Below are positions 7,434 to 9,509 of a DNA stretch of 15,104 nt, one piece after another (within the stretch, counting starts at the first letter, position 1; each line of letters opens with the position of its first letter). The DNA is from Caldilinea sp. CFX5 (GTDB taxonomy: Bacteria > Chloroflexota > Anaerolineae > Caldilineales > Caldilineaceae). The stretch is taken from assembly GCA_021405325.1 (NCBI GenBank), contig QWII01000161.1, positions 1 through 15,104 on the forward strand, read 5' to 3'. Below the pieces are notes generated by a model, which saw only the letters and a list, made by a program, of their open reading frames with translations, did no database searches and was not told the origin of the DNA. The translations under genes and the position numbers were made by a program.

Positions 7434-9509
7434 TCACTCAACTCGATACAATGGAATGGTCGCCAGCGCCGTCGCCAGGGCATTCATGGCGTACAGTGCG
7501 CCTTCCCCCCGTTCCGGTTCAATAGCGCCGCTGCCGTCTTGGTCGAAGCCATGCCACAGTTGCTCCAGCGCACCCGCAATCGGTGCGGCGGTGCGTTGGG
7601 CCTCGGCTAAGGTATCAGCCGCGGCCACCTGGCGCGCGGCGGCGCTGATGTTGGCCATCGCCGTCAGCGCCGTATCTACTACGTTGCGATCGACCGCCAG
7701 TGTGACAAATGCTTCCGCCGTCGCCGTCAAATAGGTGCGCACCCCTACGCCGTCGCCGGGGTTCTGCGCCTGCCCATCCAGATTGAGGTCGCCAAAGACC
7801 GCGCCTGTTTCCCCATCCAAGATATTGACCACATGTTCTGCATGACGTTGCGCCAGGGGCAGATCACCTGCCTGGAGGGCGTCGTTCAGCATCTGGACAT
7901 GATCCTGTGCAATCGCGCTCTGTTCATTGACAGCCGACAGCAAAGGTTTCGCCAATGGCAGGGGACTCGCCACCCACAGGTGCGTAAGCGCAGTTCTGGC
8001 CGGAACCGTAAGCTCGGCCCGCAGGATCACCTGGCCGGCGGGGGCGACAGGAGAAGCAGTCCCCTCCTGCGTGATGAGGAGACGGTCAAGCACCCCCAAC
8101 ACATTCTGTTCTGCGACCGTGATGTGTTGAATCTTGCCGGCGTTGATGGTTAACCGCCCCAGGTCAAAGAGGAGGCCATCCTGCGCCACGATCCAGGCGT
8201 GATAGTGCTGGTCGGTGGACGGTGCGGCCAGGTCGTCGATGGTTATGGTGAGCGTCTGTCCGGTTGTCGTGGGGGTGATCTGAAGCCGGCCTACCGCTTC
8301 CCCCGACAACGTAGCCGCCTTGTCAGTTGCCTCTACCAGCGAGAATGTGTCACTCAGGCTCAACACGCCGCCAAGAAGGATGACCAGGAAAGCAATGAGT
8401 AGCAGTCGGCTTGCTCCTCTTTGTGGAACCGGTTCTTCTGTTTGTTTGCCCACCGGAATGGCGGTTAAGGGCGTTGGCGCATGGGCAAGTCGTTGGGGCG
8501 CCGCTTGCCGCTTCTCCCCTGTGTGCGCCTTGCTTGTCGGTTGGCTATCCACCCGCGGTTGGGTAAGCGGCTCGACAACTATCGTCTGGGCTGGCAACAT
8601 TTGAGTGAGCGGGGCGCGCCCATCGGTGAGCGCCAGGCGCGCTTGTACTAACGCCTGCCGCAAGGTTTCGGCACGCTGAAAGCGTTCGTCCGGTTCCTTT
8701 GCCAGCGCACGCTCGACAATTTGCACGACCAGATCCGGTAAGTCCGGTCGCTGCGCCGCCAGCGGGGGCAGCGGCGCGGTGATATGTTGCATCATCACGC
8801 GCACGGGCGTGTCCCCTTTGTAGGGTGGCTCCCCGGTCAGCATTTCATAGAGGACGACACCGAGGCTGTAGAGATCGGCGCGCTGGTCAACGGCGGCGCC
8901 ATCGGCGGCTTCAGGACTCAGATAGGCGGGCGTGCCGGCCAGGACGCCACTCATGGTCAGGGCGGCATCTTCAAGCAGGTGAACAATGCCAAAATCGGTC
9001 AACACCGGATGTTGCGGCCCGCCGCTGTTCCCCCGCTTGTGAACTGGATCGCGGAACATAATGTTACCCGGTTTCACATCGCGATGGATGATCCCCTGTT
9101 GGTGGGCATAGGCCAGGGCATCGGCAATCTGTTCGCCGATCAACAATGTTTCTTCCAAAGGCAGCGGGCCACGTTCCCGCAACAGATCGGCCAGGGTCGG
9201 CCCGGCAATGAAATCCATGACCAGGTAATAGTCAGCTTCCCCAGGTGCAGCGCCAGGTTGGGTGGCCGTATCAAAGTCGATTACGCTGACAATGTTGGGA
9301 TGGCGCAGTTGACCGAGGCCGCGCGCCTCCCGCTTGAAGCGTTCGACAAAGTTGTCACGACCGGCCAGGTGCGGGTGTAAGACTTTGATCGCCACATCCC
9401 GCTCGATGACCGGCTGGCGCGCCCGATAGACCTGCGCCATCCCTCCCTGGCCCAGCCGTTCGAGTAATTGATATTTGCCAAGCATTTGTGCGGCTGCGTT
9501 CCGGTTCAT
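7434..9509 (-). CDS. transmembrane Ser/Thr kinase with novel sensor module
   Basis: A 691-aa Hanks-type kinase. The catalytic domain is residues 13-275: glycine loop LGQGGMAQVY (19-28), Lys42 (VAIKVL), HRDVKPGN (D144, N149), DFG (D172-G174) and GTPAYLSPE. It is an RD kinase with all key residues. A juxtamembrane linker rich in Pro, Gln and Thr leads to one membrane helix (about 367-389), so the C-terminal 300 residues are extracytoplasmic. There are no PASTA repeats. That part has a beta domain (YHAWIVAQDG...FDLGRL) resembling the anti-sigma-K C-terminal domain, and a helical domain with HAEHVVNILDGE (near 555) and Asp-rich loops NLDGQAQNPGDGVGV and FDQDGSGAIEPE. The lipoprotein encoded at 12336-13919 has the same two parts. 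The gene starts 3 bases after the FHA-ABC stop, so its substrates may include FHA partners. Confidence 0.93.
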   Translation of the reverse strand: MNRNAAAQMLGKYQLLERLGQGGMAQVYRARQPVIERDVAIKVLHPHLAGRDNFVERFKREARGLGQLRHPNIVSVIDFDTATQPGAAPGEADYYLVMDFIAGPTLADLLRERGPLPLEETLLIGEQIADALAYAHQQGIIHRDVKPGNIMFRDPVHKRGNSGGPQHPVLTDFGIVHLLEDAALTMSGVLAGTPAYLSPEAADGAAVDQRADLYSLGVVLYEMLTGEPPYKGDTPVRVMMQHITAPLPPLAAQRPDLPDLVVQIVERALAKEPDERFQRAETLRQALVQARLALTDGRAPLTQMLPAQTIVVEPLTQPRVDSQPTSKAHTGEKRQAAPQRLAHAPTPLTAIPVGKQTEEPVPQRGASRLLLIAFLVILLGGVLSLSDTFSLVEATDKAATLSGEAVGRLQITPTTTGQTLTITIDDLAAPSTDQHYHAWIVAQDGLLFDLGRLTINAGKIQHITVAEQNVLGVLDRLLITQEGTASPVAPAGQVILRAELTVPARTALTHLWVASPLPLAKPLLSAVNEQSAIAQDHVQMLNDALQAGDLPLAQRHAEHVVNILDGETGAVFGDLNLDGQAQNPGDGVGVRTYLTATAEAFVTLAVDRNVVDTALTAMANISAAARQVAAADTLAEAQRTAAPIAGALEQLWHGFDQDGSGAIEPERGEGALYAMNALATALATIPLYRVE

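Follow-up and report, generated by a model that had tools for sequence, protein, structure and literature searches.

The Ser/Thr protein kinase and the cupredoxin lipoprotein encoded in the window, the whole stretch of 15,104 nucleotides from Caldilinea sp. CFX5 analyzed here, carry one and the same extracytoplasmic module, with residues 404 to 691 of the kinase homologous to residues 106 to 404 of the lipoprotein. Across the Chloroflexota, the module is carried by kinases and cupredoxin lipoproteins, by DUF420 (CtaM-type) proteins, and by others. It joins a β-domain to a helical bundle, a conserved domain combination that is real and for which no name was found in Pfam or NCBIfam. The distribution of two histidine triads in the bundle suggests that a domain for handling metal has been turned to use as a sensor. 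The genes concerned are the following.

5199..7427, minus strand: cNMP-binding/NTE-type patatin phospholipase (ORF, Pfam)
7434..9509, minus strand: Ser/Thr protein kinase, 691 aa (ORF, Pfam, model), with the kinase domain at residues 13 to 285, one transmembrane (TM) helix at about residues 366 to 385, and the extracytoplasmic module at residues 404 to 691
9513..12170, minus strand: ABC-2 type transporter whose N-terminal part contains two FHA matches (ORF, Pfam)
12336..13919, minus strand: cupredoxin lipoprotein, 527 aa (ORF, Pfam, model)

Within the kinase and the lipoprotein, the following parts are distinguished.

8013..8291, minus strand: kinase module β-domain, residues 407 to 499, RskA_C-like (BLASTP, model; RskA_C matches in relatives)
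7464..8006, minus strand: kinase module helical bundle, residues 502 to 682 (alignment, model)
7743..7793, minus strand: kinase Asp-rich loop 1, residues 573 to 589, GDLNLDGQAQNPGDGVG (sequence, alignment)
7500..7550, minus strand: kinase Asp-rich loop 2, residues 654 to 670, GFDQDGSGAIEPERGEG (sequence, alignment)
13845..13919, minus strand: lipoprotein signal peptide with a lipobox, recognized by eye, ending at Cys25
13323..13604, minus strand: lipoprotein module β-domain, residues 106 to 199, RskA_C-like (model, Pfam)
12729..13316, minus strand: lipoprotein module helical bundle, residues 202 to 397 (model, structure alignment)
13140..13208, minus strand: triad A codons, H238 (13206-13208), H257 (13149-13151), and H260 (13140-13142)
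12741..12968, minus strand: triad B codons, H318 (12966-12968), H321 (12957-12959), and H393 (12741-12743)
13050..13100, minus strand: lipoprotein Asp-rich loop 1, residues 274 to 290, GDLDGDGVAQNPGDGVG (sequence, alignment, model)
12762..12815, minus strand: lipoprotein Asp-rich loop 2, residues 369 to 386 (sequence, alignment, model)
12345..12605, minus strand: cupredoxin domain, residues 439 to 525 (PF00127, 32.0 bits against a cut-off of 21.2)

BLASTP aligns kinase residues 345 to 691 with lipoprotein residues 85 to 406 at an E value of 2e-31, with 112 of 367 positions identical (31%). The Y-x-x-W motif reads QHYHAWIV in the kinase and HHYDLWLT in the lipoprotein, the motif of the helical domain reads RHAEHVVNILDGETG and RHAEHVINIINGEAG, respectively, and both proteins contain QNPGDGVGV and the two Asp-rich loops. 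AlphaFold models of both modules, built from family alignments, agree in the sequence of secondary structure elements: five strands lead to a short helix, and two further strands precede seven helices and a final strand. Confidence in blocks of ten residues lies between 94 and 99 for lipoprotein residues 101 to 400, apart from one block at 80, and between 70 and 97, mostly above 80, for the kinase module. The predicted shared fold consists of an RskA_C-like β-domain and, after it, a four-helix bundle in which one of the EF-hand-like, Asp-rich loops would break helix 2 and the other helix 4. The clearest difference between the models concerns the longest helix, with 32 residues in the lipoprotein (residues 313 to 344) compared to 21 in the kinase (residues 609 to 629); here the kinase is gapped in the alignment where the lipoprotein has H318 and H321. 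The preliminary description had proposed a common module on the two proteins and named structure prediction as a check, and both the homology and the agreement of the folds bear this out.

The same description had derived the two modules from a duplication within the locus, citing DNA similarity around the NPGDGVG codons. This similarity exists, with 78 of 108 positions identical (72%; E = 7e-13, 60.8 bits), but it is not special to the pair. Among 35 other loci, L017, L007, L014, L001, L028, L023, and L003 match the kinase stretch better and L024 matches it equally; kinase copies occur at some of the better-matching loci, but three of them (L007, L001, and L003) are cupredoxin loci. At identical residues, the window lipoprotein and kinase use the same codon in 49 of 101 cases (0.49), the highest of ten comparisons and above the 0.40 expected for this pair, the codon usage of the window predicting 0.40 to 0.42; the L001 lipoprotein reaches 47 of 97 (0.48) against the window kinase, nearly as high, and the eight further comparisons give 0.27 to 0.43. 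Protein conservation together with codon usage would give about the DNA and codon identity seen in the pair. The module of the window lipoprotein is 60 to 89% identical to its six closest relatives versus 31 to 33% to the neighboring kinase. In a tree of 82 of the 136 distinct module copies, with the cupredoxin rows thinned to 21 and locus repeats left out, the window lipoprotein falls among cupredoxin lipoproteins (4 rows, support 100/100) and the window kinase falls in a different starred clade, where 5 rows are kinases and 4 are not (99/96). The kinase label must change six times on this tree, at least four of them on starred branches. An AU test rejects joining the two window modules (p-AU 0.0145, for a group named after the tree was seen). 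Separate clades, the AU test, and the better DNA matches at other loci contradict local duplication as the origin of the pair; a recent duplication inside this locus is highly improbable.

The two halves of the module differ in how far they can be placed in known families. In the alignment A2, which holds 58 rows of non-kinase relatives from the lipoprotein-module search, the window's own included (P0052, P0054, P0058, P0060, P0065, and P0069 being left out), the lipobox residue Cys25 is at least 90% conserved, and the β-domain matches RskA_C (Pfam PF10099) at E values of ≤1 in 40 of the 58 rows, with a best value of 6.2e-11. RskA_C scores exceed the curated cut-off in the relatives L038 (39.3), L064 (35.8), P0103 (53.8), P0104, and P0107. 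The window lipoprotein stays below it, with 12.2 bits versus 29.4, and the window kinase has no RskA_C match at an E value of ≤1. Because relatives pass the cut-off, both window β-domains are RskA_C kin by transitivity, in agreement with the relationship to the RskA C-terminal domain considered earlier.

For the helical half, no named family was found in Pfam, NCBIfam, and PDB profile searches, including a profile search with the helical segment alone, as had been advised. When 14 diverse bundle sequences were compared with the family collections, any one Pfam family was matched by at most 3 of them and any one NCBIfam family by at most 1; among the single-member matches, Glyoxalase (E = 0.0025) ranks ahead of a lysozyme inhibitor (E = 0.0074). 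In the PDB profile search, a protein A-calmodulin fusion reaches an E value of 0.0023 and all else lies at ≥0.38; most of these matches concern the calmodulin loop, at E values of ≥0.74. Cupredoxins and designed bundles fill the list from the structure aligner, in which a designed four-helix bundle ranks best over lipoprotein residues 202 to 400. The suggested comparison with EF-hand or dockerin loops holds in part: the Asp-rich loops resemble the EF-hand in sequence, with weak Excalibur (0.037) and EF-hand (0.097) matches, but whole-domain matches stay below the curated score, with EF-hand_5 in 3 of the 14 sequences (best E value, 0.88) and EF-hand_1 (0.097) and EF-hand_8 (2.9) in one each.

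The search with the lipoprotein module yielded 71 proteins (the window's own included), mostly plastocyanin-type, seven of them with precomputed kinase domains; the search with the kinase module yielded 62 proteins, 51 of which were new. Their architectures comprise lipoproteins with the module and one or more cupredoxin domains, DUF420-cupredoxin-module proteins (13 distinct copies), kinase-TM-module and kinase-TM-module-module proteins, zinc ribbon-TM-module proteins, and stand-alone modules with a signal peptide (recognized by eye). Two module matches are present in 29 of the 37 new kinases, one of the 29 having the β-domain only. A bundle match at an E value of ≤0.001 was found in 65 of 400 sampled Chloroflexota genomes, a count that includes weak partial matches, scores few candidates per genome, and covers the known carriers G003 (the sample center) and G010; 50 remain at 1e-10 by hand count. 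Among the 56 genomes from the order of G003, 10 have a bundle match. One or two copies of the module also accompany an FGE-sulfatase domain in P0103, P0107, P0118, and P0119. Outside the Chloroflexota, a contig titled Thermoleophilia encodes a cytochrome c domain fused to the module (L035:5627-6811). The kinase-like proteins L081, L082, L086, and L087 have the module, weaker kinase scores, and a loop 1 devoid of its acids; L081, with HGN in place of HRD and a Cys pair at loop 1, is perhaps a pseudokinase.

The window kinase itself is a Hanks-type Ser/Thr kinase, with HRD, DFG, and the lysine in its kinase domain. It does not belong to the PASTA kinases (PknB/Stk1), having no PASTA match at an E value of ≤1; NF033483 matches residues 11 to 384 with 326.8 bits, below the cut-off of 450. 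Nor are these proteins RskA-type anti-sigma factors: P0001 has a protein kinase domain where such a factor has its cytoplasmic sigma-binding domain before the TM helix, and the window lipoprotein showed none.

Eighteen columns of A2 are invariant, and six of these are histidines: H238, H257, and H260 (triad A) and H318, H321, and H393 (triad B). Judging by the helix positions in the lipoprotein model, the histidines of each triad would cluster, with triad A near one end of the bundle and triad B near the other, roughly 20 Å apart. The triads were counted in a first set of 136 distinct copies that cover at least 150 of the 173 bundle columns, 99%-identical copies being merged and the longest parent ORF taking precedence. 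Neither triad lacks a histidine in 67 of 69 cupredoxin-linked copies and 9 of 13 DUF420-cupredoxin copies (76 of 82 together), in 3 of 24 other copies, and in none of 30 kinase copies. The kinase copies divide into 8 with triad A only, 1 with A and two residues of B, 10 with B only, 2 with B and one residue of A, and 9 with neither complete. A later kinase set, partly overlapping the first, was found with the window kinase as the query and so favors its clade, which keeps triad A: here A is complete in 64 of 64 copies and B in none, with no His in the H321 column of any. This set required at least 130 columns, by which 2 of 66 kinase copies were dropped, and four of its rows (P0074 and P0089) are proteins of the first set. 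When the sets are merged, both triads are complete in 78 of 84 cupredoxin-linked versus 0 of 75 kinase copies. The link between cupredoxin and intact triads comprises 5 pairs over independent lineages, too few to test for independent events. A simple rule is contradicted by the compact DUF420-bundle part-cupredoxin proteins (P0120 to P0123 and L004:10650-11867), whose coverage is too low for the counts and which have triad A, lack triad B, and show no β-domain match, as well as by P0045 and L018, with both triads but no recognized cupredoxin.

In the bundle of the window kinase, triad A is present as His537, His556, and His559, and triad B is gone together with a shortened helix. Since triad B is missing, the kinase module probably differs from that of the lipoprotein in metal binding. 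Parsimony on the tree places 5 to 6 of the 8 to 10 losses of each triad B residue on shared branches, with co-losses across the two triads on 0 to 1 branches and within triad A on 0 to 2; it also needs 3 to 5 gains in the triad B columns.

The preliminary description had taken the conserved His and Asp residues as signs of metal or haem binding. Metal binding agrees with the six invariant histidines; haem is not favored. Conserved histidines on the helices of a predicted four-helix bundle and the cytochrome c domain of L035 would suit a bundle that binds haem or non-haem iron, but the PDB profile list contains a single cytochrome, b562, at an E value of 2.6. Three His per site with HxxH spacing, as found here, would be more suitable for a small metal ion than for haem with two His ligands, and the iron reading is quite improbable.

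It is possible, at a little short of even chances, that the module is a transition-metal domain, probably for copper, of which the kinases keep a form cut to one site or none that serves as a sensor. Each triad would hold one transition-metal ion, most likely copper, which is favored because of the cupredoxin and DUF420 fusions. The two Asp-rich loops may be structural calcium sites that clamp the bundle, judging by their resemblance in sequence; zinc-ribbon and some kinase-like forms have a Cys pair at about the place of loop 1, the acids of which are gone (by eye), and this is consistent with loop 1 as a structural clamp. In the cupredoxin- and DUF420-linked proteins, the sites together with the blue-copper domain could hold or pass copper (or electrons) outside the membrane. 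The window kinase, with triad A only, might sense metal, the redox state, or the lipoprotein itself. The FHA domains of the neighboring ABC transporter might then recognize the phosphorylation carried out by the kinase, in the manner of PknF-Rv1747. A fuller version, in which an undescribed extracytoplasmic copper domain of the Chloroflexota is a four-helix bundle clamped by calcium and binds copper at two three-His sites separated by about 20 Å, pairs with a blue-copper domain as a copper relay or oxidase-like arrangement, and is reused by kinases with one site removed as a copper or redox sensor, appears doubtful as a whole.

Alternatively, the module could be a non-redox recognition or scaffolding domain for cell-wall, ligand, or protein binding, with histidines that are structural or bind zinc and with a cupredoxin link that reflects shared location. 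Such a role would accommodate the 9 of 30 kinase copies that retain none or one of the six histidines, the Cys pair in place of the loop 1 acids, and P0045 and L018, in which both triads are complete and no cupredoxin was recognized. It accounts less well for the high proportion of complete triads in cupredoxin-linked copies and for the loss of triad B as a unit, and it is considered unlikely.

In the window, the lipoprotein gene is followed, after a gap of 165 bp, by the FHA-ABC-2 transporter gene, which lies 3 bp upstream of the kinase gene, and the NTE-type patatin gene lies 6 bp downstream of the kinase; these last three form one tight run of genes. L002 encodes a DUF420-cupredoxin-module protein, a lipoprotein, a His-rich thioredoxin-like protein, a STAS protein, a patatin, a relative of the FHA-ABC transporter, and a kinase. 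L001 has the first four of these genes, with no module kinase picked up, and L003 shares with L002 the DUF420-cupredoxin-module, lipoprotein, thioredoxin-like, and STAS genes and the kinase, with no FHA-ABC or patatin gene picked up within the fetched stretch. The outer part of the partner kinases in L002 and L003 is the β-domain only. Judging by L001 to L003, some of these genes recur together, and what varies is the bundle on the kinase. Against the copper reading, 16 regions inspected around other module kinases showed no gene for a cupredoxin-module protein, and COX1 scores above the cut-off on the contig of the module in one of eight genomes, at a distance of about 26 kb. A pairing of kinase and lipoprotein may recur elsewhere, as P0004 and P0073 list equal longest contigs (9,606 bp), as do P0005 and P0072 (53,936 bp). 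The His-rich protein, whose CxxxxC motif is thioredoxin-like, is encoded next to cupredoxin module genes at L001:11476-12534, L002:5843-6886, and L003:11319-12509, in favor of a role in metal handling; its His-rich stretch and motif were read by eye on the L001 and L002 copies, for which Pfam gave no match. A globin-like gene lies at 981 to 1688 of the window and a globin gene lies beside module genes at L009:5296-5823, possibly by chance.

To our knowledge, few signals of bacterial kinases are known apart from cell-wall ligands. A recurrent domain for which no Pfam or NCBIfam name was found links a copper-protein architecture to Hanks-type kinases, and a kinase sensor descended from a metal-handling domain, if true, would provide a signal open to testing. 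From the pattern of the triads one can see which residues are worth testing.

The module shows likenesses to several known systems. EfeO/imelysin (M75) proteins combine a cupredoxin with a helical metal-binding domain; the architecture is alike, but none of the 14 bundle sequences matches Peptidase_M75 (PF09375) at an E value of ≤10, and hhalign gives a probability of 0.1% against a weak template (11 candidate ORFs, 3 with the GxHxxE motif). The DUF420 protein CtaM has a proposed role in copper export for oxidase assembly (PMC13344008), though another paper assigns it no function (PMC9145763). The 13 copies mentioned above are parts of DUF420-cupredoxin proteins, and the compact forms keep triad A only; no DUF420 gene was noticed in the window, going by the ORF list and Pfam on five window proteins. 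In Mycobacterium tuberculosis, the Ser/Thr kinase gene pknF likewise lies beside a gene for a two-FHA ABC transporter, Rv1747 (PMC3908365 and PMC5549992); according to the former, the two genes form an operon and PknF modulates Rv1747, a precedent for kinase signaling to FHA domains. The window appears to differ in its extracytoplasmic module, cupredoxin lipoprotein, and patatin gene.

The anti-sigma-K factor RskA has a similar β-domain, likewise outside the membrane. It binds its sigma factor inside, and we know of no helical bundle in it. The combination found here joins a membrane kinase with an RskA_C-type outer domain, a known kind, to an undescribed His-bundle domain.
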